Assembly: GCF_016827605.1 (NCBI RefSeq)
Contig: NZ_JAEPJQ010000001.1
Location: forward strand, 682,001-746,000
Length of the DNA stretch: 64,000 bases
Direction of reading: 5' to 3'
Origin: Hyunsoonleella ulvae
GTDB taxonomy: Bacteria; Bacteroidota; Bacteroidia; Flavobacteriales; Flavobacteriaceae
Every line of letters begins with the position of its first letter. Positions within the stretch are counted from its first letter, which is position 1. The notes below the pieces were generated by a model. The model made no database searches. It worked only from the letters and a program-made list of their open reading frames with translations, and was not told the DNA's origin. Of this stretch, positions 7,881 to 50,550 are shown piece after piece. Made by a program: the position numbers and the translations under genes.

Positions 7881-8930
7881 ATGAAAAAATTATTTACCCT
7901 TACAATGCTTCTTTTTGCAACTGTTGTATTTGCACAAGAAGAGGAAAAACCATCTTTCACGGTTAGTGGTAGTATTGATGCTTACTACAGAACTAACTTA
8001 ACTGGACCAAACGATATCGAAACTGTTGACGGCGACGGTGAGCCAATTACTCTATACCAAGCTCCTGGGTCTTCTTTTGCTAACTTACCTGGATTTGCTC
8101 TTGGTATGGCAAACGTAGTTTTTGCTTACGAAGGTGAGAAAGCTGGTTTTGTTGCAGATTTAGTGTTTGGCCCTAGAGGAACAGATGCAATTTTTGCTTC
8201 TCCTATATATTCTGCCACTGGTGACATTGTTAACCAATTGTATGCATATTGGAACGTTAGTGAAAGTGTAACTTTAACTATGGGTAACTTTAACACATTC
8301 TTAGGTTACGAGGTAATTTCTCCAACTGCTAACTTTAACTATAGTACATCTTACTTATTCTCTTATGGACCTTTTAGCCATACAGGTTTAAAAGCTGATT
8401 TTGCTTTAGGAGAAGATGCTAGCTTAATGTTAGGTGTGTTTAACGACACTGACATTACTGAATTTAACGTAACTGGTGACTATGCTGTTGGTGCTCAGTT
8501 AGGATATGCAGGTCAGTACTTAAATGTATTATACGACCCTTCATTTTTTGAAATCGATTTTACAGGTGGATTTGATTTATCTGATGATTTCTACTTAGGA
8601 ATTAACGCTGCACATTTAAGCTTAGAAAATGATGGTGGTGGATTTACAGGTGTTGCACTTTACCCACAATTAGCTACTTCTGATACATTTACTATCGGAT
8701 TAAGAGGTGAGTATTTCGCAGAAGACGGTGCTTTTGGTGCTATAGGTACTGGTGTAGCTGATTCTAGCGTATTAGCTTTAACTTTAACAGGAAGCTTAGA
8801 GGTAGACAACTTAACTATTAAGCCTGAAATTAGATTAGACAGTGCTTCTGATAACGCATTTTTAGATAGTGACTTAATGGCTCAAAAAAGCTTAGGTTCT
8901 TTCGTATTAGCCGCAATCTACTCTTTCTAA
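7881..8930 (+). CDS. Outer-membrane beta-barrel porin (BBP2/OmpL-like)
   Basis: The 349-aa protein has a clear Sec signal peptide (MKKLFTLTMLLFATVVFAQ) followed by a short acidic linker and then alternating hydrophobic/aromatic strands rich in Gly, Asn and Asp, ending in a C-terminal aromatic residue (AIYSF), as expected for an outer-membrane barrel. The pattern (FTVSGSIDAYYR after the signal, long low-charge strands) fits the putative beta-barrel porin-2 family of Bacteroidota. It is 103 bp upstream of an ammonium transporter and divergent from glutamate synthase, so I infer passage of small nitrogen compounds, possibly ammonium, across the outer membrane. Codon use looks like that of a highly expressed gene. 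Confidence 0.8.
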   Translation: MKKLFTLTMLLFATVVFAQEEEKPSFTVSGSIDAYYRTNLTGPNDIETVDGDGEPITLYQAPGSSFANLPGFALGMANVVFAYEGEKAGFVADLVFGPRGTDAIFASPIYSATGDIVNQLYAYWNVSESVTLTMGNFNTFLGYEVISPTANFNYSTSYLFSYGPFSHTGLKADFALGEDASLMLGVFNDTDITEFNVTGDYAVGAQLGYAGQYLNVLYDPSFFEIDFTGGFDLSDDFYLGINAAHLSLENDGGGFTGVALYPQLATSDTFTIGLRGEYFAEDGAFGAIGTGVADSSVLALTLTGSLEVDNLTIKPEIRLDSASDNAFLDSDLMAQKSLGSFVLAAIYSF

Positions 8931-10916: not shown

Positions 10917-12155
10917 ATGGAAGGATTATTTACAGCAAATAATGTATGGATGATGATCTGTACAGCACTAGTATTTTTTATGCATACAGGATTTGCATTT
11001 TTAGAGATTGGATTAACGAGACAAAAAAACACCATCAACATTTTATTTAAAAACATATTCATCATAACCGTTGGACTGCTATTATATTATATTCTAGGGT
11101 TTAACTTAATGTATCCAGGTTTTGAAGAAGGCTCTGCTGGTTTTTTCGATTTTGCAGGTTTTGGTATTGCGCCACCTGAGAACGGAATGACTCCTGAGTA
11201 TGCAGACGGTGGTTACACTTGGTGGACAGATTTCTTGTTCCAAGGGATGTTTGCCGCAACAGCTGCTACTATTGTATCGGGTGCTGTAGCTGAACGTATG
11301 AAAATAGGCCCATTCATGTTATTTACCGTGCTTTATGTAGGTATCGTATATCCACTTGCTGGCTCATGGAAATGGGGTGGTGGATTTTTACAAATGAGAG
11401 AAACACCTTTTTATGACTTTGCTGGTTCTACTTTAGTACATTCCGTAGGTGGTTGGGCAGCTTTAATTGCTGTATGGTTATTAGGTTCTAGAATAGGGAA
11501 ATTTAAAAACGGAAAACCACAGGCAATTCCGGGACATAGCATTCCTATGGCTACAGCCGGTGTATTAATTTTATGGTTAGGATGGTTTGGTTTTAACGGA
11601 GGTTCCGTGTTATCTGCAGATCCTGAGTTAACATCTTTAACTTTAGTAACTACCTGTTTAGCTGCTGCTGCAGGTGGTGTTGTAGCTGCTTTTGTATCAT
11701 TCCTAAAGTATAAGAATTTAGATTTAACTATGTTCTTAAACGGTATTTTAGGTGGATTAGTTGGTATTACGGCTGGTGCTGACCAAATGAGCCCTGAGAA
11801 TGCGATAGTGATAGGAGCAATTGCTGGTGCATTGATTGTATTTGCAGTAGCATTTATTGACGCGATTAAATTAGACGATCCTGTTGGAGCTATTGCTGTA
11901 CACCTAATTTGTGGTATTTGGGGTACTTTAGCGGTTGGTATCTTTGGTAAATTAGCTGGTGTAGATCAATTTATAAGCCAATTGGTTGGTATTTTATCTT
12001 ATGCTGCTATCTGTATACCATCATCTTTCATCATATTCTTTTTAATGAAGAAAACAGTTGGTATACGAGTGTCTGAAAGAGAAGAGCTAGAAGGATTAGA
12101 TGCCCATGAACATGGTATGGACGCTTATCCAGACTTTAGATTAAACGAACACTAA
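10917..12155 (+). CDS. amt: Ammonium transporter 2 (Amt family)
   Basis: This second Amt paralogue (412 aa) has the pore histidines at H175 (STLVHSVGGW) and H329 (AVHLICGIWG), the GWFGFNGGS segment and a PII-docking type C-terminus (GLDAHEHGMDAYPDF). It lacks the longer N-terminal extension of the first transporter. It follows the PII gene by 31 bp, so the two are very likely co-transcribed, the classic glnK-amtB arrangement; the upstream amt is then the extra copy. The two copies differ substantially, so this is not a recent tandem duplication. Confidence 0.95.
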   Translation: MEGLFTANNVWMMICTALVFFMHTGFAFLEIGLTRQKNTINILFKNIFIITVGLLLYYILGFNLMYPGFEEGSAGFFDFAGFGIAPPENGMTPEYADGGYTWWTDFLFQGMFAATAATIVSGAVAERMKIGPFMLFTVLYVGIVYPLAGSWKWGGGFLQMRETPFYDFAGSTLVHSVGGWAALIAVWLLGSRIGKFKNGKPQAIPGHSIPMATAGVLILWLGWFGFNGGSVLSADPELTSLTLVTTCLAAAAGGVVAAFVSFLKYKNLDLTMFLNGILGGLVGITAGADQMSPENAIVIGAIAGALIVFAVAFIDAIKLDDPVGAIAVHLICGIWGTLAVGIFGKLAGVDQFISQLVGILSYAAICIPSSFIIFFLMKKTVGIRVSEREELEGLDAHEHGMDAYPDFRLNEH

Positions 12156-12177
12156 TAGTTATAACAATATTAGTACA

Positions 12178-12208
12178 AAAAATGCCTCGCAAATTGTGAG
12201 GCATTTTT
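12178..12208. terminator. Bidirectional intrinsic terminator
   Basis: The stem AAAAATGCCTC (12178-12188) pairs with GAGGCATTTTT (12198-12208) and further inner pairs extend it. It serves the convergent amt 2 and HAD genes; the HAD stop codon lies at its edge. Confidence 0.85.
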
Positions 12209-12875
12209 ATTTTAAGAGGTTTAATATAAATTCAAAATCAGAGAAATCCTTTAGTATTGTTTCACATCCTGCCTTTTTAAGCTTACCACTCCCGTGATAA
12301 TCTACACCAATAAAATCTATCCCTAATTTTAAAGTTGATTTATAATCCCATAGTCCATCCCCAAAATATACAATTTTATCAAAACCATCTGTCTTGGTTC
12401 TTAACAATGCCTCATCAATGGCAAGTTGCATGATTTTCGTTCTATCAAAGTGGTCGTTAGAGGACTTTAGAATATATTGCTCTAACTGTAAACCAAATGT
12501 ACTGCATTTAAGTTTTGCTGTTTCTTCCCAACCTCCAGTAGCAAAAGCAATCTTAAAATCAGTGTGAGATGATATATAATCAATAAATTCTAGTGCTCCA
12601 TAAACTGTGCTTATTTCATGAATTTTATGGTTGAGTAATTTATAGAATTCATGCTTAATAAGATTTATTTCATCTTGTGTGGGTATGCGATGCAACCATT
12701 TATCAAAAATCTCGACAGTTAACCCAGTATCTGTTACATGCTTAAATTTACTCCAATCAGCCGTTGAAAGATCTATATTATATAATGTTTTAAAAACGTC
12801 TTTAAAACAATCGTCATCAACCCTAACAGAGTCTAATAAAGTTCCATCTATATCAAATACTATCAATTTCATCAT
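12207..12875 (-). CDS. HAD-superfamily phosphatase
   Basis: The 222-aa protein starts with the catalytic motif I DxDGT (FDIDGTLLDS, residues 7-16). Motif II is in the FATGG stretch near residue 115, and motif IV (YFGDGLWDY) lies near residue 170, as in phosphoglycolate phosphatase-like HAD hydrolases with an alpha-helical cap at about 20-90. A cytoplasmic small-molecule phosphatase is expected; the substrate cannot be read from the sequence. The start may be either of the two consecutive Met codons. It lies downstream of ppc on the same strand but a terminator separates them. Confidence 0.85.
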   Translation of the reverse strand: MMKLIVFDIDGTLLDSVRVDDDCFKDVFKTLYNIDLSTADWSKFKHVTDTGLTVEIFDKWLHRIPTQDEINLIKHEFYKLLNHKIHEISTVYGALEFIDYISSHTDFKIAFATGGWEETAKLKCSTFGLQLEQYILKSSNDHFDRTKIMQLAIDEALLRTKTDGFDKIVYFGDGLWDYKSTLKLGIDFIGVDYHGSGKLKKAGCETILKDFSDFEFILNLLK

Positions 12876-36644: not shown

Positions 36645-39122
36645 ATGCTATTACATCAAAAATCTATTTTAATACTTATTGGTTATTTACTTCTAACCTA
36701 CAATGGTTTTTCGCAAATAAAAGGTGTAATAGTTGACGAACAAAACACACCCCTAGAGTATGCTACTGCTGCTTTGTTTGAATTAAAAAATGGAACTTTA
36801 ATAGCTGGAGTAATATCAGATAACAATGGTGCTTTTACTTTTAAAAACATTAAAAAAGGAAGCTATTATTTGGAAGCTTCTTTTTTAGGTTACGAAAAAA
36901 AGCGAATTGAGAACATTACTATTACAAAAAAAGGAGAGGCCATTGATGTAGGGACTATACAATTGGTATTAGGCACACAATTAAATGAAGTGGTTGTAAA
37001 TGCAGAAAAAAAATCTGTGGTAAATAAAATTGACCGGCAAATTTTTGAAGCTTCAAAGTTTAAAAATGCCCAGGGTGGCTCTGGAATTGATGTTATTAGA
37101 AACTTACCATCCGTAAGCATAGACAGTCAAGGAGAAATTACTGTTCGTGGTAGTTCTGGTTTTGTGGTATTGTTAAACGGTAAACCAATTCAAGGGAGTG
37201 CAACCAACCTTATAGCGCAGCTGCCAGCCAATGCAATAAAAAAAGTTGAAGTAATCACGGCCCCATCTGCCAAGTACGACCCAGAGGGCAAAGCTGGAAT
37301 TATTAATATTTTAACTAATAAAGGTGTAACAAATGGAGCCTTTGGACAAGTAAATATTAAGGGCGGTTTACCATCCATTGAAACGTATGGTAACGATGTA
37401 TCACATAAACGCCATGGTATTGATGCCACGTATAATGTTAGAAATGATATCTGGAACATCTCTTTAGGTGTAAATTATCAAAGAAATGATTTAGGTGGAA
37501 GGCGAGAAGGCGATGTGTTTACAATTATAAATGATACCCTAACACGTTTCCCATCAACAGGCGAACGTAGTTTTGACGAAACCAATTATAGTGGCCGTTT
37601 TACTTTAGATTTTACACCCAACGAAACCAACATCTTTTCCTTTGGTTTTTTTGCAGGAAAACGAAGCAAGGCACGTTTAGCTGATATCGTATATTTTGAT
37701 AATCATGCTGTAACACCCGCAAACAGTAATAATAGAGATTATACATTCCAGTATTTTAATCACAACCTTAGAGAACGCAAAGGCGATTTTATTTTAGGAA
37801 GTTTAGACTGGATACATAGTTTTAAAAATAGTTCAGAATTATCTGCATCACTACTTTATGAGTATACGCTTTTGGGTGGACCAACGGTAAATCAAAACTT
37901 AGGAGAGCCTGATCGTTCTATTTTATTTCAAGATGAATTTAATACTAATGACAATCCGCTTAACGGGGTACGTTTTCAATTAGATTACAAATTCAAACCT
38001 TTTAATTTTGGTACTCTAGAAACAGGATATCAATACAGGGACTTAACCCATACGGGGGATTTTATTTATGAAAGACGTACTAGTTTTAATGATGATTTTG
38101 AGTTGGTTCCGGAATTTTCAAGTGAAGTAGATTTAGAAAGAACCATTCACTCTGGGTATATTCAATTTTCAGGACAAAACGGAAACTGGGAATATGCTGC
38201 CGGATCTCGATTAGAAGTGATGGATAGATCGTTCCGATTAAAAGACAAAACCAATACTGTTGATGAAACTTTGAATTACGATTTTGTAAGACTCTACCCG
38301 TCCGCTTCATTTCAATATACAATCAATAGGAGTACAAAAATAAAAGCTGCTTATAGCAAACGTGTGGAACGTAATTCTACATTTAAAATGAACCCGTTTG
38401 CTGAACGTGAGCATTCTGAAACCCTAGAACAAGGCGATAAAAATTTAAGACCCGAGTTTATTGATTTAGTTGAGATAGGCGTGACCAAAGATTTAAAAGG
38501 TGGCAATTCTATTTTTGCAACCGGGTATTTTAGACATATTAATAACGTAGTAAACCGGGTTAATACAGTATTTAATGATACTATTTTAAATAGAATATAT
38601 TCTAATGTTGGAAATGCCAAAGCTATTGGGCTAGAACTAGGTGCAACATTAAAGCCCACCAAAACGTGGAGCAATTTTATAGGCGCAAATATTTATAATT
38701 ACAGCATCAAAGGTAATTTTGATAACAGGACTATCAATAATGATGCTACAATTTATTCCATTAATCTAAATTCAACATGGCAATTTTGGGATAATGCATC
38801 ACTTCAGTTTACATTTAATTATCTATCTGATAGAAATACAGCTCAAGGCGAAGATTCTCGATTTTACTCACCCAATCTTACATTCCAAAAATCATTTATG
38901 AATAATAGGCTTACTGCAACGCTACAATGGCAGCATATAGATTTAGGGTTGCTGGACACTAACGAACAGCGCATTACCACCGCTAGGGCAAATGAGTTTT
39001 TTACAACCACTAATTACATTTATGAAGTGGACATGATTATATTAAACCTATCTTATACCTTTAAACAAGGTAAAAACAAATCGACCTTTATAGATAGTGA
39101 ATTTGGGAAAAAGGAATTTTAA
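36645..39122 (+). CDS. TonB-dependent receptor-like outer-membrane protein (OMP_b-brl family)
   Basis: The 825-aa protein has a signal peptide to about residue 24 (NGFSQ), then a carboxypeptidase-D-regulatory-like domain at 25-110 (KGVIVDEQNTPLEYATAALF, DNNGAFTFKNIKKGSY). Next come a plug domain at about 125-240 (GIDVIRNLPSVSIDSQGEITV, NGKPIQGSA) and a 22-strand-type barrel ending LNLSYTFKQGKNK. The VRGSSGFVVLLNGKP style and barrel pattern place it in the outer-membrane beta-barrel receptor family common in Bacteroidota. The substrate is unknown. It stands alone and converges on the PiT gene with only 14 bp between stops. Confidence 0.88.
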   Translation: MLLHQKSILILIGYLLLTYNGFSQIKGVIVDEQNTPLEYATAALFELKNGTLIAGVISDNNGAFTFKNIKKGSYYLEASFLGYEKKRIENITITKKGEAIDVGTIQLVLGTQLNEVVVNAEKKSVVNKIDRQIFEASKFKNAQGGSGIDVIRNLPSVSIDSQGEITVRGSSGFVVLLNGKPIQGSATNLIAQLPANAIKKVEVITAPSAKYDPEGKAGIINILTNKGVTNGAFGQVNIKGGLPSIETYGNDVSHKRHGIDATYNVRNDIWNISLGVNYQRNDLGGRREGDVFTIINDTLTRFPSTGERSFDETNYSGRFTLDFTPNETNIFSFGFFAGKRSKARLADIVYFDNHAVTPANSNNRDYTFQYFNHNLRERKGDFILGSLDWIHSFKNSSELSASLLYEYTLLGGPTVNQNLGEPDRSILFQDEFNTNDNPLNGVRFQLDYKFKPFNFGTLETGYQYRDLTHTGDFIYERRTSFNDDFELVPEFSSEVDLERTIHSGYIQFSGQNGNWEYAAGSRLEVMDRSFRLKDKTNTVDETLNYDFVRLYPSASFQYTINRSTKIKAAYSKRVERNSTFKMNPFAEREHSETLEQGDKNLRPEFIDLVEIGVTKDLKGGNSIFATGYFRHINNVVNRVNTVFNDTILNRIYSNVGNAKAIGLELGATLKPTKTWSNFIGANIYNYSIKGNFDNRTINNDATIYSINLNSTWQFWDNASLQFTFNYLSDRNTAQGEDSRFYSPNLTFQKSFMNNRLTATLQWQHIDLGLLDTNEQRITTARANEFFTTTNYIYEVDMIILNLSYTFKQGKNKSTFIDSEFGKKEF

Positions 39123-39136
39123 AGTAAAACGTTTTA

Positions 39137-41416
39137 TTATTCCTCTTGATCTGTGATAGTAGCAGGTTTTACACTAGCATCGTGTGCATTATGGTATTCA
39201 TCTAGTAACGACCAAGTCGCTTTTAACAAGTCTTTAGTTTCGAGTAACAGACTAAAATACAACGTTGTGTTTTTAGGACTCGATTCTTCTGATCTTGTTC
39301 TTTCTACTTGCTTTTGGATCTTATCTGTAACTAAATCAAAAAACTTATTTTTTTCACTTAAAATTATCCCGATTTCTTCAAATGTCTCTGTATCAAATGC
39401 CTTTCTAGTGTGCTCAAAAAGCTGCTCTAAATGGGAATCTATTTCTTTTAACTCTTTTATCTGGCTAAACTTAAGCTTCTTATGGTTATTGTTAACATGT
39501 TTAAAACTAGCGTTAGATATATATGTTAAAGACTGTGCCATATCTTGAAGATACCCTAAAACACTTATGTAAAAATTACTGGCATTTACACTGGGATCTT
39601 CAAGGTTTTTTATGAAGTAATAGATGTTATCCTTTAAATCGTCTATTTCATAAGACAATTTCTCTATTTGTTTTTTATTCTTCTTTAAATCTTTAAGGTT
39701 ATGGGTAGCCAAACCATTTACCGCACTGGTGTAAATCTTGTTACCGCGTCTTACTACATTTGCAATATTACTGGCGCTCTCTACAATAACCCCTTGCGTA
39801 GAACTACTCTCTGCTTTTTGCAATGTATCTTCTTCCTTTAATTCCTTTGACTGTTTACGGTGTGTTAAGTAGTTTTTTATAAGGAGTGCAGTTGCCAAAA
39901 TTAACAAACCAGTTAACGCATAACCTTTTCCAAAATAAAGGATAAAAGCCATAATGGCTGCAGCGACAAAAGCACTAAACGCAGTAAAAAACCATCCTCC
40001 TATTACATTAAGCACACCTGCAACGCGGTACACAGCACTTTCAGCGCCCCAAGCACGGTCTGCCAAAGAGGTTCCCATGGCTACCATAAACGTAACATAG
40101 GTAGTAGATAACGGTAACTTCATAGAAGTTGCAATAGAGATTAATACACTAGCTACCATCAAATTTACAGATGCTCTTACCAAATCAAACGCAGGTTTAT
40201 CCTTAGCTTTTACTGCAGCATTGTAATTACTTTGCGTAAATTGTTTATCAATGTATTTTTTTGCCGATTCTGATAGCAAACTGTTAAATTGGTTAGAGGC
40301 ATTAATACTTAGTCTCACAATATTTCTAGATAGGAAATTAGGTTCAAAACGCTCATTAACCTCATCCTGCCTAGAAAGGTCTACCGATGTTTTTACAACC
40401 GCTTTAGCCTTACTAGAAAACCATAACGTTAACACCATTACTAAGCCTGCAATAAGCAGTAAGTATGGTTCTGTTGCTACCGGTTCGCTTAAAGCCAACA
40501 TTGGGAAATTTGTGGGTAAAACGGAGCTTACAGACCATGCTTCAAACGAATTATATGCAGCAATAGGCACTCCAATAAAATTAACTAAATCGTTACCTGC
40601 AAAGGCTACAGCAAGAGCAAAAGTCCCAATAACAATAATTATCTTATAAATATTTAGCTTAAAAAATTGTATTAAAGCCATCGATACCAAGGTAAAAACC
40701 AGAAAACTAATAGCTATTAAAGCTAAATTATTTTCAGCAATTAAGGTTTTTATATCACTGCTCATAAAAGATGCATTTTTAATACCCTTGATTAAAATGA
40801 AATACAAAATTGATGTGATAGCAAAACCACTAAAAATAGCACCAAAAAACTTAGGCTTACTTGAAAAATCGAATGACAACAATAATCTTGAAACAAACTG
40901 GATAATGGCTCCAATGGTAAATGCTACTATTACAGAAAGTAGAATACCTAGTATAATTTCAATAGCTTTCTCGTTATTTATATAATTACCTAGATCTAAA
41001 ATAGTTTGCTGGCTATCTTTAGACATTATTTTAATAATCGCAATACACACAGAGGCACCTAAAAGCTCAAATACGATAGAAACCGTTGTAGAGGTTGGCA
41101 GCCCAAGTGTATTGAAAAAATCCAGAAGTAATATATCTGTAATCATTACAGCCATAAAAATGACCATAATTTCATCAAACATAAATTCGCCTGGATTAAA
41201 AATACCTTTCCTAGCTACCTCCATCATACCGCTAGATGTAAGTGCTCCTACGGCAACACCTAAACTGGCAACTATCATGATGGTTTTAAATGAAACGGCT
41301 TTCGACCCTATAGCTGAATTAAGAAAATTTACAGCGTCGTTACTAACACCTACTATTAAATCTGCAATTGCCAAAAATGCCAAGGCAACTAGCATGTAGA
41401 TATATATGTTCTCCAT
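39137..41416 (-). CDS. PiT-family inorganic phosphate transporter with C-terminal PhoU-like domain
   Basis: The 759-aa inner-membrane protein contains the duplicated PiT signature: DLIVGVSNDAVNFLNSAIGS near residue 20-40 and FAGNDLVNFIGVPIAAY near 270. There are about twelve hydrophobic helices to residue 510 and a soluble helical C-terminus (about 545-745) that resembles PhoU (LSYEIDDLKDNIYYFIKNLED, KKLKFSQIKELKEIDSHLEQL in parts). Fusion of a PiT channel with a PhoU-like regulator is a known architecture. The promoter carries phased TTAACA-like half-sites (41460-41487), which suggests phosphate control. Confidence 0.92.
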   Translation of the reverse strand: MENIYIYMLVALAFLAIADLIVGVSNDAVNFLNSAIGSKAVSFKTIMIVASLGVAVGALTSSGMMEVARKGIFNPGEFMFDEIMVIFMAVMITDILLLDFFNTLGLPTSTTVSIVFELLGASVCIAIIKIMSKDSQQTILDLGNYINNEKAIEIILGILLSVIVAFTIGAIIQFVSRLLLSFDFSSKPKFFGAIFSGFAITSILYFILIKGIKNASFMSSDIKTLIAENNLALIAISFLVFTLVSMALIQFFKLNIYKIIIVIGTFALAVAFAGNDLVNFIGVPIAAYNSFEAWSVSSVLPTNFPMLALSEPVATEPYLLLIAGLVMVLTLWFSSKAKAVVKTSVDLSRQDEVNERFEPNFLSRNIVRLSINASNQFNSLLSESAKKYIDKQFTQSNYNAAVKAKDKPAFDLVRASVNLMVASVLISIATSMKLPLSTTYVTFMVAMGTSLADRAWGAESAVYRVAGVLNVIGGWFFTAFSAFVAAAIMAFILYFGKGYALTGLLILATALLIKNYLTHRKQSKELKEEDTLQKAESSSTQGVIVESASNIANVVRRGNKIYTSAVNGLATHNLKDLKKNKKQIEKLSYEIDDLKDNIYYFIKNLEDPSVNASNFYISVLGYLQDMAQSLTYISNASFKHVNNNHKKLKFSQIKELKEIDSHLEQLFEHTRKAFDTETFEEIGIILSEKNKFFDLVTDKIQKQVERTRSEESSPKNTTLYFSLLLETKDLLKATWSLLDEYHNAHDASVKPATITDQEE

Positions 41417-41442: not shown

Positions 41443-41487
41443 CAAATGTCTTATTTTAAAATGAACTCTATGTTAACGGAATGTTAT
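41443..41487 (-). promoter_or_regulatory. Pho-box-like promoter of the PiT gene
   Basis: On the minus strand ATAACA (41482-41487) and TTAACA (41471-41476) are 11 bp apart, followed by a weaker third unit TTCATT (41460-41465). The TTTG of a -7-like GACATTTG (41443-41450) begins 24 nt after TTAACA. The start codon is 27 bp further on. The same 24-nt geometry occurs at two other promoters in this region. TTAACA-N5-TTAACA is the form of PhoP boxes in Bacillus; the assignment here is inference. Confidence 0.6.
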
Positions 41488-41614
41488 GTTCTAACTGTAT
41501 ACGATTGAATAAAAGATACTATATTCTAATATAAAATCGGTCTTGAGGAAATTCAATGTTAAGAAATGCTATTTTTAAATATTTTAATCATTTGACAAAC
41601 AAGTGCTTGCAGGT

Positions 41615-41673
41615 TTAATGTTAATTTAATGTTACGTTAATGTTTTGAAAAAGTAAAATAAATACTATATTTG
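41615..41673. promoter_or_regulatory. Triple 11-bp repeat overlapping the promoter of the MORN-like gene
   Basis: Three exact-phase repeats TTAATGTTAAT, TTAATGTTACG and TTAATGTTTTG (41615-41647) run head to tail. The last ends in a TTG (41645-41647), which is 18 bp from a perfect -7 motif TATATTTG (41666-41673), giving a full Bacteroidota promoter 31 bp before the ATG at 41705. Read on the minus strand, the units are AAAACA, GTAACA and TTAACA at 11-bp spacing, like the Pho-type sites nearby. The site could act on the plus-strand gene, on the PiT gene, or on both. Confidence 0.6.
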
Positions 41674-41704: not shown

Positions 41705-42022
41705 ATGAAAAAATATATAACAATTTTAGCTGCTTTATTTATAAGTGCTTCAGTATTTGCTCAAAAAGAGAGAACATTAACCTTAAATAAAGAAACAAAT
41801 TTAATTGACGTTGTTTATTATCACGATAACGGAGAGGTAAGCCAAACAGGATCTTACACCGCTGATGGTAAACTTCAAGGACAATGGATTAGTTATAATG
41901 AGGCAGGAGAAAAGACAGTTACCGCATATTACAAAGAAGGTAAAAAAGTTGGCAAGTGGACTTATATAATAGATGGCAAATTAAAAGAGGTTGATTATTC
42001 TAAAAATGTGGCCTCTCTATAA
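41705..42022 (+). CDS. Small secreted MORN-like repeat protein
   Basis: The 105-aa protein has a signal peptide (MKKYITILAALFISASVFAQK). The mature part carries two or three MORN-2-type repeats: DVVYYHDNGEVSQTGSYTADG, KLQGQWISYNEAGEKTVTAYY (about residues 33-75) and KEGKKVGKWTYIIDGKLKEVDY. Such repeats are structural; in related flavobacterial proteins the role is unknown. It is a single-gene unit with a near-ideal promoter overlapping three phased repeats and a strong terminator, so a short, highly regulated transcript is expected. Confidence 0.8.
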   Translation: MKKYITILAALFISASVFAQKERTLTLNKETNLIDVVYYHDNGEVSQTGSYTADGKLQGQWISYNEAGEKTVTAYYKEGKKVGKWTYIIDGKLKEVDYSKNVASL

Positions 42023-42094: not shown

Positions 42095-43339
42095 CTATCT
42101 AGTCCAACCAGATCCCCAAGTTGCAAAATCAGTACCCGTACCGTTACCTTCACCAGAAATTAAATCTCCTTCTGTTAAAGTATCAACACCAGTATCATTT
42201 TTAAACTTTGTGGTTACATCTACAAATGTTACATTGTTAACCTGTAACTCATCATCAACAATCGCTTGACCCGTTGGATCTGAAGTATCATTGCCGTCAA
42301 TATCAAACGCTTCTCCAAAACCAGTGATACTTATATTTGTAAAAATAGCCGCTGTACCTCTTCTTAAACGAACAGCTTCGTATGCAGTTGGATCAATTAT
42401 TTTACCATCTTGAAATGTATTATCTGATCCTACACCAACAATAGTTACATTAGTTACAGTTGGGCTAGAAAAGAAAATTGGGTTTGAATTGTTCCCAAAA
42501 TCATCATTATATCCATCACACTCAAACGCTTTATCAGAGTTGAAAGTTTCTGTTGGGTTTTGGATATGTTGAATATAAGCATCAGTGATTGTACCTGAAT
42601 ACCCTTCAGTCCAATCGATAGAATCATCTTGTAAATTCATTACAGCAACATGGCTAACATTTACAGTTCCACCAAAGAACTCAACACCGTCATCTTTACC
42701 TTCGTAGATTTGGATGTAATCTACCTGAGTACCATTACCTACACCATAAAAAGACAAACCGTTGTTTTCTGATTGACCATCAGCAGAACCGCCAGAATAT
42801 TCAATTCTTAAATATTTTAACGAACCAGAATTGTCACCTGCTTCATTACCACCGTAAGGTAAACCAGCGATTTCAGAAGTAGAGGTTGCAGTACCAGTTA
42901 CAGAGTTAATAGGTGCTTTTCCTAAAAGGATTAAACCTCCCCAGTCTCCAGCTTCAGGATTAGAAGCATCTGAAGTAAATACAATTGGATTATCCGCTGT
43001 TCCTTCTGCTATAATTTGAGCTCCTTGAGATATAGCTACATAAACGTCAGATCCAGCTGCAAGAGCTTCAATTGTCATACCTGCAGGAATAGTTAGTGTT
43101 GCACCATCAGCTATTACTAAAGAACCATTGATTTTATAATTTTTATTAGCATCTAATGTTAAGTCATTAGTATATGTTCCTGATAAAAATACATCTGTAT
43201 CTACTGGAGTACCACCTCCATTACCAGCATTATTATTAGTAATGTTTAATACAATATCTGCTGTATCATCGTTAGCGCAAGACGTAAAAAGTAACGTTAA
43301 TGCAACTAAACTTAGTAAAAGGTTATTTCTCATTTTCAT
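42095..43339 (-). CDS. Surface-type lipoprotein with beta-helix repeats, partner of the TonB receptor
   Basis: The 414-aa protein has a lipoprotein signal ending LFTSC near residue 22, followed by ANDD, an acidic pattern known in Flavobacteriia as a signal for export of lipoproteins to the cell surface. The rest is rich in Gly, Asp, Asn and Thr with repeated short strands (GSLVIADGATLTIPAGMTIEALA in parts, NNGLSFYGVGNGTQVDYIQI), a right-handed parallel beta-helix pattern. Databases often carry misleading names for this type. It starts 49 bp after the TonB receptor stop and forms an operon with it. It probably captures the receptor ligand on the cell surface. Confidence 0.8.
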   Translation of the reverse strand: MKMRNNLLLSLVALTLLFTSCANDDTADIVLNITNNNAGNGGGTPVDTDVFLSGTYTNDLTLDANKNYKINGSLVIADGATLTIPAGMTIEALAAGSDVYVAISQGAQIIAEGTADNPIVFTSDASNPEAGDWGGLILLGKAPINSVTGTATSTSEIAGLPYGGNEAGDNSGSLKYLRIEYSGGSADGQSENNGLSFYGVGNGTQVDYIQIYEGKDDGVEFFGGTVNVSHVAVMNLQDDSIDWTEGYSGTITDAYIQHIQNPTETFNSDKAFECDGYNDDFGNNSNPIFFSSPTVTNVTIVGVGSDNTFQDGKIIDPTAYEAVRLRRGTAAIFTNISITGFGEAFDIDGNDTSDPTGQAIVDDELQVNNVTFVDVTTKFKNDTGVDTLTEGDLISGEGNGTGTDFATWGSGWTR

Positions 43340-43388: not shown

Positions 43389-46202
43389 TTAAAAATTGTA
43401 TTTAAATTGAAGGCCAATAGTAATACCTCTTTGGAAACTAGAAAGTAAAACATCTCCATCACCAGTATTTTCACGTATCATTTCTACTTTTGGATCTAAT
43501 AGGTTTTTGGCACTAAAGTTTATTTCTGTCTTTTCTCCTAACTTGTTTTTAAGGATGAAATCTAAAGTAGGTACTGCTTTTTCAATTACATTTCCAACAT
43601 CACCAGATCCTAAAGAAAATATTCTATCAGAAGAATAATTGAAAACTAAATTAGCAGCTGGCTTAAAGTTTTCGCTGATTGTAGGTTTAAAACTTAAGTC
43701 TGCATTTACAATAATTGGAGATGCTCCTTCCAATTCATCTGTATCTCTGTTAAATGATGTTCCATAAGACCCTTCAATAGAGTTATAAAGATCTTGTTCT
43801 GTATGCATATAAGTGAAGTTAAAACCAGAGGAAAGAATAGCGTCTTCATCTTCATTTAGTATTAAATTTTTTCTTAACTCAATTTCAGCTCCTAAAATCT
43901 CTGCTTTCTCACCTGTTCTAAAATAACGCTGGGTTCCTGTAGCGTCTGCAGCAAGTACTAAGTTAATAGGATCGTTAATTTGCTTGGCAAATACGCCTAC
44001 AGAAAGTACTTCACTTTTACTAATAAACCATTCGTATTTTAAATCAAGATTGTAAATATCTGAATATGATTTATCGGTAAGATTTACACCAGTACGTGTT
44101 CCTAGTAAGTCTTGGTTACCACCAATTCTGTAACTAATACCCTCGTAAACAAATGGTGCAATTTCTTTAAATTCTGGAACCGATACTGTTTTACTAACTG
44201 CAAAACGTAAATTCTGGTCATCAGTAATAGCATATTTAACGTTTAAACTTGGCAATATGAAGTTTTCAGAAGACTCAGAAAAACCAGGATCATTAGGTCG
44301 CAAGTTAATAGCATCATACTCGATACGTTGATTAAAGTTTTCAACACGCACTCCTGGAATTACTAACCATTTTTCACTAAGGTTTATCTCGGCTGAAACA
44401 TAACCTGCATAGATATCTTGAACACCCTTATAAGTATTCTCTAAGTTTCCTGGGAAATTAGTCTGGGTAACACCGTTAATTGGATCTATTGGATTAAACA
44501 CATGTGTTTGATACACACCATCTAGAAAATTCTGTAAGTTGAATATGCTATTAAAATTAGTGATACTATTTATACCAAAAGTAGATGTGTTGATGTTTTT
44601 ATAACCGTAACGAATGTTATCAAAATGCCTCTCTCTTGTTTTCCCATCGTAACCAATAATCAACTTTACAGTTTCAGTAGGTTTGTAAGAAAGGGATAAT
44701 CTACTGTTTAACTCTTCATCCTCAATATTTTGAAAATAACGCTGGTTATTAAAATTGTTATTTTGATCAAAACTAGGTACTGTATTAGGGTCTGTGTCTA
44801 ATAAATTATCATAACCTAATAATGAAAAACGCTTTCTGTCTGGCTCATGAGCAAATACGCGGTTATGCCCTATACCCCACTCTACAGCTATTTTATCATC
44901 AAATTTATGCTCACCAATTAATTGATTTACTAATACAATATCTTGGTTAAACTGTAAGTTACTCTGAAAATATCCACTTGGCTCATCAGAGAAATCATAT
45001 AGAATTCCATTCCCCCCAGTTCCATAAAAACCTACTTGATCAGACGAACTATTAATGGCCAAAGAAGATAATTTTAATTTATGGTCGCTATTAATTCTAT
45101 ACAACGCTGTTGCCATTGCTGTAGAGGTTGTGGAATAATCATATTGTTCAGTTTCTGGAAACAGCTTGTTATAACCAGCAGTATAATCTGCAACCAAACC
45201 TTCCCTGTAAGAGAAGCTATTATCGAATGAAGCTGTTACAAACAGACTTAAACGAGAGTCATCTTTAAATGTGAATGATTTCCCTCCAGAAAGACTAATC
45301 CCCATATTAATAGCTGGTGTTTCAGCTTCAATTGGATCTACTCCGTGGGATAAAATAACAGCAAACGGATTGTGATTATATCTAGCATAGTCCCCAACAT
45401 ATCCTGGGCCTTCATTTCTTAAAAAAGTTTTTCCAACTGCTCTAGAGTTTACAGAAGCACCAAGAGCAACATCAAAAAATCCTTGACCAGTGTATTCTTT
45501 AGAAGTAATATCTATATTACCAGCTGAGAAATCGCCATAAAATCTTGCTGAATACGCTTTACTTACACCAACGTTTTCAATAACATCAGACGAAAATAAA
45601 TTCAAATCGATATTTTTCTTATTGACGTCATTGGAAGGAAGTGACAAACCATTCATGGTACTGTTTAAATAACGGTCACCCAAACCACGCACATAAACGC
45701 TATTAGAACCTTCTTGCTTAGATATTCCTGAAATTTTAGCAACAGCGCCTGCAGCATCACTAACACCTTTTCTGGAGAGTTCCTGAGCTCCAATACTCTG
45801 CTTTATAGCAACAGCATTTTTTTGTTCTAATAATAATGCTGTTTCACTTTCGCGCTTAGTGGTAGTTGTTATAACAACCTCATCAAGCGATGCTGCACTA
45901 GCCCCCATTACCACATTAAGTTCTTTAACCTCTCCAGCAATAATCGTTATTTCTATTTCTTGAGTTTCATAACCAACAAAACTAAAAATCAAGGTATAAG
46001 TTCCAGCATCTAAATCTGCCAATTCATATAAACCATCAAAATCTGAGGTGGTTCCTTTTGTTGTGCCTTTTATTAATACGTTTGCAAACGCTAAAGGCTC
46101 ATTATTATATTCTTTATCTGTTAATTTTCCTTTAACAGATCCTGTTTGCGCATAAGACAGCACAGTTGTAAAGAGTAGTAATAATAGTGTAAAATGTCTC
46201 AT
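43389..46202 (-). CDS. TonB-dependent receptor with N-terminal carboxypeptidase-regulatory-like domain
   Basis: The 937-aa outer-membrane transporter has a signal peptide to about residue 19 (YAQ), then a CarboxypepD-regulatory-like domain at 20-105 (GKLTDKEYNNEPLAFANVLIKG and FSFVGYETQEIEI), followed by a DEVVITT segment. The plug runs from about 130-240 (SIGAQELSRKGVSDAAGAV, VYVRGLGDRYLNSTMNG), and the barrel ends QRGITIGLQFKYNF. It is the first gene of an operon with a beta-helix lipoprotein. The promoter bears a six-unit 11-bp-phased array, so expression is likely phosphate-controlled; the ligand may be a phosphorus compound, but this is inference. Confidence 0.93.
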   Translation of the reverse strand: MRHFTLLLLLFTTVLSYAQTGSVKGKLTDKEYNNEPLAFANVLIKGTTKGTTSDFDGLYELADLDAGTYTLIFSFVGYETQEIEITIIAGEVKELNVVMGASAASLDEVVITTTTKRESETALLLEQKNAVAIKQSIGAQELSRKGVSDAAGAVAKISGISKQEGSNSVYVRGLGDRYLNSTMNGLSLPSNDVNKKNIDLNLFSSDVIENVGVSKAYSARFYGDFSAGNIDITSKEYTGQGFFDVALGASVNSRAVGKTFLRNEGPGYVGDYARYNHNPFAVILSHGVDPIEAETPAINMGISLSGGKSFTFKDDSRLSLFVTASFDNSFSYREGLVADYTAGYNKLFPETEQYDYSTTSTAMATALYRINSDHKLKLSSLAINSSSDQVGFYGTGGNGILYDFSDEPSGYFQSNLQFNQDIVLVNQLIGEHKFDDKIAVEWGIGHNRVFAHEPDRKRFSLLGYDNLLDTDPNTVPSFDQNNNFNNQRYFQNIEDEELNSRLSLSYKPTETVKLIIGYDGKTRERHFDNIRYGYKNINTSTFGINSITNFNSIFNLQNFLDGVYQTHVFNPIDPINGVTQTNFPGNLENTYKGVQDIYAGYVSAEINLSEKWLVIPGVRVENFNQRIEYDAINLRPNDPGFSESSENFILPSLNVKYAITDDQNLRFAVSKTVSVPEFKEIAPFVYEGISYRIGGNQDLLGTRTGVNLTDKSYSDIYNLDLKYEWFISKSEVLSVGVFAKQINDPINLVLAADATGTQRYFRTGEKAEILGAEIELRKNLILNEDEDAILSSGFNFTYMHTEQDLYNSIEGSYGTSFNRDTDELEGASPIIVNADLSFKPTISENFKPAANLVFNYSSDRIFSLGSGDVGNVIEKAVPTLDFILKNKLGEKTEINFSAKNLLDPKVEMIRENTGDGDVLLSSFQRGITIGLQFKYNF

Positions 46203-46225: not shown

Positions 46226-46303
46226 CAAAGAAACTACCGTTTTGTAAACATTGTGTTACCTGACGATTAAAGAACTGTAATAAAAGTGTTAGCTTAACAT
46301 TAC
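46226..46303 (-). promoter_or_regulatory. Pho-box-like six-unit array and promoter of the TonB receptor
   Basis: On the minus strand, units start every 11 bp: GTAATG (46298-46303), CTAACA (46287-46292), ATTACA (46276-46281), TTAATC (46265-46270), GTAACA (46254-46259) and TTTACA (46243-46248). The -7-like TTTCTTTG follows; its TTTG (46226-46229) begins 24 nt after GTAACA. The half-site therefore takes the position of the -33 element. A weak seventh unit may lie at 46309-46314. The same elements occur before the orphan-domain gene. Confidence 0.65.
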
Positions 46304-46412
46304 CTAAAAGCTACTTTTTTAACAAGAAAGTTTACGGTTAGTTAACATTGCCTACAAAACACCTTGTTAACTTGAAAATTAGCTTCTATTATTATTTAAT
46401 AGTCTAAAAAAC

Positions 46413-46446
46413 AAAAGTCCTTTTTGTAAATACAAAAAGGACTTTT
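46413..46446. terminator. Intrinsic terminator after orphan-domain gene
   Basis: A perfect 16-bp stem (46413-46428 with 46431-46446; AAAAGTCC plus T-run against its complement) lies directly after the minus-strand stop at 46480. It separates this gene from the TonB receptor promoter. Confidence 0.85.
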
Positions 46447-46479
46447 ACTTATGCTAACTAAAAAATCTTCTAGTTGTTT

Positions 46480-46860
46480 CTAGTTGTTTTTTGTAGTAGT
46501 ATTTTTTTGTTCTGAAGAAGCGTATACCATTGTTAAATCATCAAGAGATAAAACACTAGCACCTAATGATAATGTTATAGTATTTGTGTTTTTAGAATTT
46601 ACTTCAGCTTTAATTTCTTTTGTTTCATATCCAGTGAAACTACAAACCAAAGTATAACTCCCTTCTTTTATGTTATCAAACTTAAAAACACCTTTTTCAT
46701 CCGTCATCACTCTAGCTCCTGTTTCTTTTATAGTAACTTTGGCAAATAGTAGTGGATTATCACCTTCCTCTGCATCTGTAATTTTTCCATTAATAGTCCC
46801 GTTTTGTGCAGATGCAAACATCGTTACAAATAAAACCATAGTGAATAGAAAATGTTTCAT
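46480..46860 (-). CDS. Orphan carboxypeptidase-regulatory-like domain protein
   Basis: The 126-aa protein has a signal peptide (MKHFLFTMVLFVTMFASAQ) and a single CarboxypepD-regulatory-like domain (GKITDAEEGDNPLLFAKVTI, GVFKFDNIKEGSYTLVCSF). It ends with LGASVLSLDDLTMVY, where the TonB receptor next door has LNVVMGASAASLDEVVI. It is therefore a free-standing copy of the receptor N-terminus, without plug or barrel. No stop or frameshift links it to further receptor sequence; the C-terminus is polar (SSEQKNTTTKNN). It has its own terminator and a promoter almost identical in layout to that of the receptor. It may compete for or modulate the same TonB or ligand partner. Confidence 0.85.
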   Translation of the reverse strand: MKHFLFTMVLFVTMFASAQNGTINGKITDAEEGDNPLLFAKVTIKETGARVMTDEKGVFKFDNIKEGSYTLVCSFTGYETKEIKAEVNSKNTNTITLSLGASVLSLDDLTMVYASSEQKNTTTKNN

Positions 46861-46885
46861 AATTACTTTATCAAATTATTTGGTG

Positions 46886-46963
46886 CAAATAAACTAGTTT
46901 ATTGTAATTAAGATGTTACCAAAGCATTAATCCTAAATGATTAAAATGTTACCCTAATGTTAA
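46886..46963 (-). promoter_or_regulatory. Pho-box-like six-unit array and promoter of the orphan-domain gene
   Basis: On the minus strand, units start every 11 bp: TTAACA (46958-46963), GTAACA (46947-46952), ATCATT (46936-46941), TTAATG (46925-46930), GTAACA (46914-46919) and ATTACA (46903-46908). The -7-like TTTATTTG follows; its TTTG (46886-46889) begins 24 nt after GTAACA. From GGTAACA to TTTGCA the spacing is identical to the receptor promoter, with TAGTTT and TTTGCA shared. The array also lies 104 bp before the divergent queuosine-transporter gene. Confidence 0.65.
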
Positions 46964-47066
46964 GAGATTAGACAATCATCTTTAGAGTAAAACTAATTGC
47001 GAATAATAAAAATAAGCTCCTATTAAGAACACATATAATAAAATGCTAAATTAGCTAAGAAGAAAG

Positions 47067-47877: not shown

Positions 47878-50550
47878 ATGAAGAAAGTCTTAAAGATTAT
47901 CGGTATCACACTTTTAATTATAATTGCGCTTTTAATAGCCATACCTTTTGCTTTTCAGGGGCAAATTAAAGATATGGTTAAGCGTTTCATCAATCAAAAT
48001 TTAAATGCCAAGGTAGAATTTAGCGATGTAAATTTAAGTTTTATTAAAAGCTTTCCTCAAGCCCATGTTAGTGTAAACGATTTGGTAATTACTAATTTTG
48101 AACCGTTTAAAGATGAAACGTTTGCCACGGCTAAAGACATTGCGTTTACCATGTCGATTAAAGAGCTGTTTAAAAACCCCAGCGACGACCCTATCATTAT
48201 AAATTCTATTGCTGTAGAAGAAGCACTTTTAACCCTAAAAACGGATAAATTAGGCAACACCAATTACGATATCACTAAGGAAGAAGAAGGCAAACAAACC
48301 ACGCCTGAAAGTGATGCCAGTTTTGCATTTAGCATTGAAGACTACAACATTAACAACAGTGCTTTTTCTTATATAGACGAAGGTGCAGATATTTTGATTC
48401 ATGTAACCGAGCTTAATCACGAAGGCCACGGTACATTTTCTGCTGAAACCTCAGAATTGAACACGAAAAGTGAAGCCAATGTTAGCATTACATTAGACAG
48501 TACCAATTATTTGAGTAACAACCCAATAAAATTAGACGCTCTAATCGATTTAAATTTAGAAAACAAAAAGTACAGCTTTAAAGACAACAAAGGCTACATT
48601 AACGATCTCCCATTAGAATTTCATGGGTTTGTACAACAAGTTGATAACGGACAACAGATTGATATTACGTTTGAAAACCCAGAATCTGACTTTAAAAACT
48701 TTTTAGCTATAATCCCAAAAGCATACTCTAAAAGCATTGAAAACGTGCAAACCACTGGGGATTTTAAGGTAAAGGGTGCCATAAAAGGTTTAAGCTCTGA
48801 AGAAACCATCCCAAACATAGATATAAGTATTTCGTCCAACAATGCTTCCTTTAAATACCCAGATTTACCAAAACGGGTTAGCAACATTACCATAGACACC
48901 AAAATTAAAAATGAAACAGGAAATGTAGATGACACCTATATCGATATTAAAACCTTAAATTTTAAAATTGATGAAGATGTGTTTAAATCATCCATCACTT
49001 TGAAAAACCTCACTAAAAACATGTTAGTAAACGCTAACATTGATGGCGTTTTAAATTTAGCCAATATTACAAAAGTGTATCCTGTAGATCTAGAAAACAC
49101 ACTTACGGGGATTTTAAAAGGAAAAATAAATACTGCTTTTGATATGAACGCCATTGAAACCAATGCTTACAATCGTATTAAAAACAATGGTTCTGTTGAT
49201 ATTACAGATTTTGTATTTTCTTCTGAAGACATCGTGAACCCCATCCATATTTCGCAAGCAAACATGACCTTTAAACCTGGTACAGTAACACTTAATAATT
49301 TTAAGGCCAAAACTGGAGATAGTGATCTTGATGCTACAGGCACCATTAAAAACTTACTTGGGTTTTTACTAAGCGATAATACGCTAAAAGGTAACTTTAA
49401 TGTAAACTCTAATACATTTAAGGTTAGTGATTTTATGTCTGAAGATGAAACTGTATCTGAAAATAACAAAACCACTACAGACGAGGAATCCCTTAAAATT
49501 CCGGCATTTTTAGATTGTACCATAAATGCTAATGCAAAAACTGTGTTGTATGATAATTTAAACCTTAAAAACGTTACAGGTACATTGTTTATAAAAGATC
49601 AAAAAGCAGAGTTACAAAATATGTCATCCTCTATTTTTGATGGGAAACTATCTATAAATGGTGCAGTAACAACAAAAGAAAAAACACCTGTATTCGATTT
49701 AAAATTAGGCGCTAATAATTTTGATATTGCCCAATCGTTTAAAGGCATGGAGCTCCTACAAAATCTTGCACCCATTGCTAAGTTATTACAGGGAAAATTA
49801 AACACTTCACTGAATCTTTCAGGATCTTTAGATAAGGATTTTTCTCCTGTTTTAAGCTCAGTTTCAGGAGACGCTTTGGCTGAGTTACTTACCACAAACA
49901 TCAATACTAAAGATGGGCTCTTGAACAAATTGGAAAGCTCCCTAAACTTCATTGACTTTGATAAATTAGACTTAAAGGATATAAAAACGAAGCTAGAATT
50001 TGCAGATGGAAAAGTAGCGGTACAACCTTTTGATTTTAAGTATAAAGATATAGCTATTGAAGTTTCTGGAGCACACGGTTTTGATAAAACCATCAACTAC
50101 AACGCAGTATTTAACGTACCTACCAAATATCTTGGTAGTGAAGTAAATCGACTTGTAGGGCAAATAAACGATACCGAGGTTAACAATATTACCATTCCTG
50201 TAACTGCTAATATTACTGGAGCTTTTACCAATCCTACGGTTAAAACTGATTTAACCAATGGTGTAAAAAACCTTACCAACCAACTCATTGAAATCCAAAA
50301 ACAAAAATTATTAAATCAAGGTAAGGATAAAGTGAAAGACCTAATTGGTGGTGTAATTGGAGGTAATAAAACAAAAACAGATTCTATTAAAAAAGAACAA
50401 GATAATGTGGTTAAGGATGTGTTAAACGATATAATAAAGAAGAAAACACAAGATTCTACTACAACAGATAACACAAAATCTACCGAAGACGCAATTAAAA
50501 ACGTGCTAGGTGGTTTGTTGGGTAAAAAGAAAAAGGATACGGTTCAATAA
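47878..50550 (+). CDS. AsmA-family large periplasmic protein
   Basis: The 890-aa protein is anchored by one N-terminal helix (IIGITLLIIIALLIAIPFAF, residues 7-26), followed by the AsmA start (INQNLNAKVEFSDVNLSFIKSFP, in parts). A very long series of amphipathic beta strands follows, and then the AsmA_2-like C-terminal region near 660-790 (GKLNTSLNLSGSLDKDFSPVL, SGAHGFDKTINYNAVF). The last 90 residues are Lys/Asp/Thr-rich and disordered, ending LLGKKKKDTVQ. AsmA-like proteins are thought to form hydrophobic grooves for lipid transfer between membranes. It is a single-gene unit. Confidence 0.88.
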   Translation: MKKVLKIIGITLLIIIALLIAIPFAFQGQIKDMVKRFINQNLNAKVEFSDVNLSFIKSFPQAHVSVNDLVITNFEPFKDETFATAKDIAFTMSIKELFKNPSDDPIIINSIAVEEALLTLKTDKLGNTNYDITKEEEGKQTTPESDASFAFSIEDYNINNSAFSYIDEGADILIHVTELNHEGHGTFSAETSELNTKSEANVSITLDSTNYLSNNPIKLDALIDLNLENKKYSFKDNKGYINDLPLEFHGFVQQVDNGQQIDITFENPESDFKNFLAIIPKAYSKSIENVQTTGDFKVKGAIKGLSSEETIPNIDISISSNNASFKYPDLPKRVSNITIDTKIKNETGNVDDTYIDIKTLNFKIDEDVFKSSITLKNLTKNMLVNANIDGVLNLANITKVYPVDLENTLTGILKGKINTAFDMNAIETNAYNRIKNNGSVDITDFVFSSEDIVNPIHISQANMTFKPGTVTLNNFKAKTGDSDLDATGTIKNLLGFLLSDNTLKGNFNVNSNTFKVSDFMSEDETVSENNKTTTDEESLKIPAFLDCTINANAKTVLYDNLNLKNVTGTLFIKDQKAELQNMSSSIFDGKLSINGAVTTKEKTPVFDLKLGANNFDIAQSFKGMELLQNLAPIAKLLQGKLNTSLNLSGSLDKDFSPVLSSVSGDALAELLTTNINTKDGLLNKLESSLNFIDFDKLDLKDIKTKLEFADGKVAVQPFDFKYKDIAIEVSGAHGFDKTINYNAVFNVPTKYLGSEVNRLVGQINDTEVNNITIPVTANITGAFTNPTVKTDLTNGVKNLTNQLIEIQKQKLLNQGKDKVKDLIGGVIGGNKTKTDSIKKEQDNVVKDVLNDIIKKKTQDSTTTDNTKSTEDAIKNVLGGLLGKKKKDTVQ

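Follow-up and report, generated by a model that had tools for sequence, protein, structure and literature searches.

Two promoters in the window, by which we mean the whole 64-kb stretch of DNA that was analysed, are each preceded by a series of short, similar units, and the question they raise is what protein would read such a series, and under what conditions. An earlier note on this DNA had suggested a PhoB-type regulator. We likewise consider the arrays of these promoters, P1 and P2, to be probable Pho boxes for a PhoB-type regulator acting in the phosphate-starvation response, a reading drawn from sequence comparison to which we assign a probability of about 0.88.

Anatomy of two phased arrays

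The earlier note had described six half-sites at each promoter, and re-measurement found them in place, with a step of exactly 11 bp between hexamers throughout P1 and likewise throughout P2. The hexamers of P1, read on the minus strand, begin at 46303, 46292, 46281, 46270, 46259 and 46248 (GTAATG, CTAACA, ATTACA, TTAATC, GTAACA and TTTACA, respectively) and those of P2 at 46963, 46952, 46941, 46930, 46919 and 46908 (TTAACA, GTAACA, ATCATT, TTAATG, GTAACA and ATTACA); TTAATC and GTAATG in P1, and ATCATT in P2, are weak units. Promoters of this phylum follow a -33/-7 consensus, with a -7 element of the TAnnTTTG type. At P1 and P2 alike the fifth unit, GTAACA, ends 24 nt 5' of the TTTG of the -7 octamer, so that the register reported in that note also holds.

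Table 1. Features of the locus in window coordinates.
Feature	Position	Strand	Sequence	Remarks
P1 -7 octamer	46226..46233	-	TTTCTTTG	One mismatch to TAnnTTTG; TTTG at 46229-46226
P1 array	46239..46304	-	GGTAATGTTAA GCTAACACTTT TATTACAGTTC TTTAATCGTCA GGTAACACAAT GTTTACAAAAC	Six 11-bp units; 36.4 bits
Inverted pair of units	46330..46351	+	GTTTACGGTTA GTTAACATTGC	-122 to -101 from the P1 TTTG
P2 -7 octamer	46886..46893	-	TTTATTTG	One mismatch to TAnnTTTG
P2 array	46899..46964	-	CTTAACATTAG GGTAACATTTT AATCATTTAGG ATTAATGCTTT GGTAACATCTT AATTACAATAA	Six 11-bp units; 31.6 bits
Stand-alone CarbopepD_reg_2 protein (orphan gene)	46480..46860	-		126 aa; putative target of P2; resembles receptor N-terminus
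TonB-dependent receptor with CarbopepD_reg_2 domain	43389..46202	-		Putative target of P1
Lipoprotein-like protein	42095..43339	-		414 aa; no Pfam family; FII type
105-aa secreted-looking protein	41705..42022	+	TATATTTG (-7)	No Pfam family; TTG 18 bp upstream of -7
Four-unit array	41615..41658	-	TTTTACTTTTT CAAAACATTAA CGTAACATTAA ATTAACATTAA	23.8 bits; directly upstream of the 105-aa gene promoter and reversed to it
Pit box	41467..41488	-	CATAACATTCC GTTAACATAGA	Two units; TAAC N25 TTTG register; TTTG at 41446-41443
Pit-type phosphate transporter (PF01384)	39137..41416	-		759 aa

Scores in bits were obtained with a unit matrix built from 19 P1-orthologous promoters, all from other genomes. 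Dinucleotide shuffling of the 200-bp upstream regions never reached the observed score in 2,000 attempts for either promoter, the shuffle maxima being 17.7 bits for P1 and 14.9 bits for P2. Across the window, three stretches score at least 20 bits at 11-bp spacing, namely P1, P2 and the four-unit array, whilst no stretch does so at any of nine other spacings from 7 to 16 bp (maximum 18.7). Two more 11-bp matches, of 15.5 bits (48465-48497) and 16.5 bits (8224-8289), are chance-like. The arrays therefore consist, as a Pho box should, of two or more tandem direct half-sites at 11-nt spacing.

Arrays at phosphate genes of this and other genomes

The earlier note took the absence of phased matches upstream of other phosphate genes in the same genome as counting against its proposal; such matches were found at the PlcP-type, PhoX-type and Pit genes. 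Over the whole 4.06-Mb genome, a model (R1) built without P1 and P2, the training set of which contained same-genus orthologues of P1 and none of P2, returned P1 as its first match (E 3.2e-20) and P2 as its second (E 5.5e-11). The third lies at a gene for a PlcP-type metallophosphoesterase (E 0.057); the fourth (C1:539503; L097 6504-6559; E 0.07) falls between flavin reductase and histidine kinase genes, has no evident phosphate link and is perhaps a chance occurrence. The promoter of the PhoX-MauG pair is weak in this model (E 1.8, in a different register); in a fixed-pattern search the PhoX-type promoter tied for second place, with one mismatch. In another pattern search the Pit box was among three exact matches in the genome.

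Five promoters of this genome, those of the receptor, orphan, Pit, PlcP-type and PhoX-type genes, have boxes of two to six units in one register, TAAC N25 TTTG in four and TAAT N25 TTTG at plcP. Hence several phosphate-acquisition functions in a single genome, the receptor operon, Pit, PlcP-type and PhoX-type genes, have such a box at their promoters. The same five genes were the best of 144 ORFs scored in the window and nine further stretches, although these stretches were chosen for model matches or regulators, so the unselected test is the window part only, Pit included. Sixth of the 144, at 13.0 bits, is the region upstream of an outer-membrane beta-barrel protein (window 36645-39122), which has two TAAC units outside the usual register. 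A two-unit pattern followed by TTTG shows no genome-wide excess, with 84 matches against 85 for the reversed control, and short boxes alone therefore predict nothing; a 17-base pattern allowing up to three mismatches gave 55 against 48, only the top few rows being informative.

A matrix scan of related genomes, as the earlier note had recommended, revealed phased arrays in front of orthologues of PhoX, PlcP and Pit in other genera. Loci were fetched regardless of their promoters, own genome included (13 for PhoX, 30 for PlcP and 30 for Pit, the last from 45 matches), and at least 15 bits were reached within 200 bp upstream in nine, 17 and 19 of them, respectively; the corresponding figure for receptor loci was 25 of 30. 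After thinning by hand against near-copies, which left sets of six, 18 and 19 loci not selected for arrays, 11 bp was the best of ten spacings: the mean score was 14.6 against 4.1-8.6 for three units at PhoX, 11.5 against 1.9-3.0 at PlcP, and 13.6 against 5.0-8.5 for two units at Pit, with z from 7.6 to 16.5 at 11 bp relative to 200 shuffles. If two units are used for PhoX, a 9-bp spacing (12.0) almost equals 11 bp (12.3). Arrays of at least 12 bits occur in 30 of the 43 thinned loci, 28 of them with a TTTG in range, and 21 of these 28 scorable arrays share one phase to it, where about one in 11 would be expected. Fixed placement over the upstream (-35/-33) element, a further property of Pho boxes, is thus seen in these orthologue arrays as in the five promoters above. 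PlcP promoters have up to six units; promoter-proximal boxes at Pit mostly comprise two, and ten of the Pit loci (L256-L265) instead have as their best array one of four or five units that begins 232-250 bp upstream.

Neighbouring ORFs of the PhoX, PlcP and Pit loci, with receptor loci excluded, were scored as intended negatives, but this set failed as a control because array-bearing phosphate genes were inside it. Thirteen of the 89 ORFs reached at least 12 bits and seven at least 15 bits, and the best 12 of the 89 were all in Pit loci. The seven comprise four phosphate-selective porins (PF07396), two orphan CarbopepD_reg_2 genes and one gene without a family; an eighth neighbour gene that was checked, at 14.9 bits, is a porin too. 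In a wider set 24 of 155 ORFs scored at least 15 bits, among them orphan-gene orthologues and the receptor starts of truncated loci. In L277, L279, L276, L269 and L268, which come from other genomes, the gene immediately 5' of pit encodes a phosphate-selective porin O/P and has an array (14.9 to 20.5 bits across the five); no such porin is found directly upstream of pit in the window.

Arrays at pst loci, for which the earlier note had also suggested looking, are present in the phylum. Of 118 genomes searched across it, 97 gave a PstC match, which in 75 exceeded the family cut-off; the best match in the genome under study is weak (E 2.8e-6). Both strands of the 1.5 kb upstream were scanned in 30 fetched loci, of which 15 have their highest score at 11 bp and 15 do not; the three-unit mean is 9.67 at 11 bp and 4.07-6.68 at other spacings, and at least 12 bits are reached in 11 loci at 11 bp as against two or fewer at any single other spacing. 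As the PhoB of Bacteroides fragilis (BF1576) is reported to bind, in gel-shift assays, a fragment of the pstC promoter (PMC3547664), PhoB is the natural candidate for the arrays at pst loci.

Flavobacterium johnsoniae allows the arrays to be set beside expression data. The genome used here, CI04, is not that of the strain studied in PMC8115612 (DSM2064), but its gene order, a glycosyltransferase (GT28), porin, PhoR and PhoB, then a divergent TBDT and FII, matches Fjoh_0541 to 0546 of that paper. The 414-aa lipoprotein-like protein of the window is 33% identical over 356 positions to the CI04 protein of FII type beside phoBR-TBDT. Arrays were found in CI04 at the TBDT (27.4 bits), porin (22.1 bits) and FII (17.9 bits). 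According to Table 1 of PMC8115612, four of the six genes of the cluster are induced by phosphate depletion, with entries in the FC column of 5.42 for the glycosyltransferase, 3.06 for PhoB, 8.02 for the TBDT and 9.91 for FII; outside the cluster, PhoX (12.50), MauG (9.58) and PlcP (8.59) are induced as well. PhoR (Fjoh_0543) is listed as barely induced (0.76, FDR 0.056) and the porin Fjoh_0542 as not induced (-1.3, FDR 0.245), though the counterpart of the latter in CI04 carries an array. When the CI04 genome was searched with a second model, R2, which scored 150 of 5,469 candidates, the TBDT promoter was the sole significant match (E 2.3e-9), followed at 0.096 by the next, giving one clear match and 32 weak ones. 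Inspection of 30 matches by eye found a Pit accessory gene (L207) and an FII homologue (L193) near or in register, whilst most of the others look like chance.

The candidate regulator and competing explanations

The host, to judge from its GldL and its relatives, is probably a flavobacterium. Its genome encodes three OmpR-type regulators. One (C1:475134-475811) has a receiver and a Trans_reg_C domain, and its two best models are PhoB models; we call it PhoB-type because it scores under the curated NCBIfam equivalog cut-offs (TIGR02154, 223.8 of 296.2 bits; NF053854, 215.3 of 270 bits). Its gene adjoins one for a HisKA/HATPase kinase, the best models of which are PnpS and PhoR, both below cut-off, and it is thus paired with a kinase of PhoR type. 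In six of the 30 receptor loci an orthologue of this regulator, 63-85% identical, is encoded divergently beside the receptor, the other two regulators standing at 32-37% identity; arrays are visible in at least four of these six loci (L021, L023, L025 and L032). The segment GGRTIDVHIRKLRE, which from the structure of PhoB we take to be the recognition helix, is identical in all eight aligned PhoB-type orthologues, own included. Between the phoB of this genome and a 113-aa gene with a secretion tail domain lies a five-unit array of 24.9 bits (L096 7875-7929), oriented away from phoB; since the six relatives have the receptor at this place, it may be a relic or autoregulatory. Gene neighbourhood, and the pst loci elsewhere in the phylum, are the grounds for a probable link between PhoB and the arrays.

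Other OmpR-type regulators also use direct repeats. The arrays might be bound by one of the other two regulators, for which RprY is the best model, below cut-off, or by an unrelated activator, with the genes serving as a regulon against a different nutrient stress at the surface. We consider this unlikely and dropped it: it is the PhoB-type regulator that adjoins the receptor in six relatives, the target genes are phosphate genes, the arrays recur at pst loci, and the other two regulators differ in the segment GGRTIDVHIRKLRE.

The shared geometry of P1 and P2, which the earlier note had called identical, is real, but they are not two independent events. An alignment of 150 bp (67%, E 9e-6) joins P2 and the beginning of its gene to P1 and the 5' part of the receptor gene, and at the protein level the match between the orphan product and the N-terminus of the receptor covers about 110 residues. 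P2 with its gene therefore appears to have arisen by duplication of P1 and the receptor start, and the common geometry of the pair proves little alone. Orthologues of the orphan gene lie upstream of the receptor in the loci of 11 relatives, additional matches in L011 and L017 probably being the receptor itself. Stand-alone CarbopepD_reg_2 genes with arrays of their own recur beside the receptor or pit, as in the window and, near pit in two other genomes, at L275 4531-4920 and L278 294-686. That the two arrays are merely look-alike remnants of one duplicated promoter, phased without function, nevertheless seems very improbable and was set aside, as PlcP, PhoX and Pit promoters of other genera have a like array in the same register and the P1 array is retained in diverged orthologues.

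This retention was assessed amongst orthologues of the receptor, which is present in 33 of 60 genomes, own included. Thirty loci were fetched and 19 entered an alignment, from which the window and a near-copy (L006, L007) were held out; L010, L034 and L035 lacked a TTTG within range, L011 and L017 were truncated or without promoter, L032 was re-anchored, and L021, L028, L030 and L033 were omitted by eye where the array or anchor needed gaps, the array being visible in L021. Information in these 19 ungapped promoters reaches its maxima at the TAAC cores of six units, which lie at -75, -64, -53, -42, -31 and -20 from TTTG, with 11 bp giving the highest power among twelve periods, although the degree of conservation is overstated because rows were picked partly by eye and misaligned ones dropped. 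A sequence that is simply AT-rich and periodic, bending DNA or acting like an UP element with no specific binding protein, would share the AT-richness and helical phasing of the half-sites, but this idea is scarcely credible and was discarded, given that conservation centres on TAAC with a fixed C of up to 1.9 bits in an AT-rich background, that dinucleotide shuffles do not reproduce the arrays, and that their occurrence follows gene function.

The receptor promoters have a second component. Amongst 21 of them, window included, a pair of units in the opposite orientation, of at least 9.5 bits, was found at -122 to -99 in 15 when -230 to -71 was searched; nine of the carriers belong to the same genus and six to other genera. 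In L018 the pair scores 5.6 bits, and within the searched range it is absent from L020, L023, L025, L031 and L032, three of which have the divergent phoB. One guess is that another PhoB dimer binds this pair and either stabilises the array or restrains it.

Reversed orientation is also seen in the four-unit array at the 105-aa gene, which is possibly a PhoB-repressed gene. In another genus (L350), a gene next to pit (11954-12310) resembles it by eye, and a similar array lies at 12343-12397.

A candidate Bacteroidota Pho box and known systems

The arrays at PlcP-type, PhoX-type and Pit genes and their orthologues, together with the synteny of the regulator, lend strong support to the putative phosphate regulon proposed in the earlier note, and the arrays probably work like, and are, a Bacteroidota Pho box. 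The mechanism we infer is that, in phosphate starvation, a phosphorylated PhoB-type regulator would line up on the tandem, helically phased 11-bp half-sites, which have a TTAACA-like consensus of approximately GGTAACAntnn. Because of the fixed distance from the array to the -7 element (TAAC N25 TTTG), the fifth unit would occupy the position of the -33 TTG, and the missing -33 contact would be made up for by the bound regulator, which would bring in RNA polymerase. P1 would thereby drive the TonB receptor-lipoprotein operon, and P2 the duplicated stand-alone receptor domain.

A broader proposal, which we put forward tentatively and at somewhat less than even odds, is that Bacteroidota share, across the phylum, a Pho operator with an architecture of its own: up to six PhoB half-sites in a register-locked array that covers the -33 region of a promoter of the -7 type, with an inverted two-unit box added at outer-membrane receptor genes at a fixed position, about -121 to -100. 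Two opposed PhoB assemblies would then flank about 24 bp as one composite complex, serving as a loop, stabiliser or brake, and reversed arrays such as that at 41615-41658, by the 105-aa gene, may repress.

A literature search over passages from the main texts of freely available papers found no published Pho operator or consensus for Bacteroidota. In the main texts, the word 'consensus' does not occur in PMC3547664, nor was an operator sequence found there; 'Pho box', 'promoter' and 'motif' do not occur in PMC8115612, which covers expression rather than operators; and 'PhoB' is absent from that of a flavobacterial promoter map (PMC9723704). Putative Pho boxes in marine plcP clusters were identified by 'bioinformatics approaches' in PMC4796936, a figure or supplement of which may contain a flavobacterial plcP box. 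Descriptions of the phosphate-starvation genes of Bacteroidota have so far dealt with their expression and gene content. With a defined box in a locked register, regulon prediction would become feasible in flavobacteria; such a box could explain the joint response of receptor, lipoprotein, PlcP and PhoX genes, and offers a direct test by mutagenesis of how a PhoB-type protein acts on the -33/-7 promoters of this phylum.

Core hexamer and spacing are shared with the PhoP boxes of Bacillus subtilis, TTAACA-type repeats with 11-bp spacing, although that species differs in phylum, promoter type and sigma factor. The E. coli Pho box overlies the upstream promoter element. Unlike that box (CTGTCAT), the arrays described here have a TTAACA/GTAACA core, up to six units and a register to a TAnnTTTG-type -7 element, but they resemble it in their tandem, head-to-tail 11-nt half-sites and in the PhoB-type winged-helix regulator; PhoB binds such repeats head to tail and contacts sigma (reviewed in PMC4415409). 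In Synechocystis, the Pho box consists of three tandem repeats with a TTAA core, required for binding of PhoB (SphR) (PMC11126600), whereas the present arrays have up to six units, a fixed -7 register and a gene set with TonB receptors and Pit. Within the phylum, the likeness to B. fragilis BF1576 lies in a Bacteroidota PhoB tied to a phosphate promoter, pstC (PMC3547664), and that to the phosphate-depletion genes of F. johnsoniae in the same gene types and the same phoBR-TBDT-FII cluster (PMC8115612).
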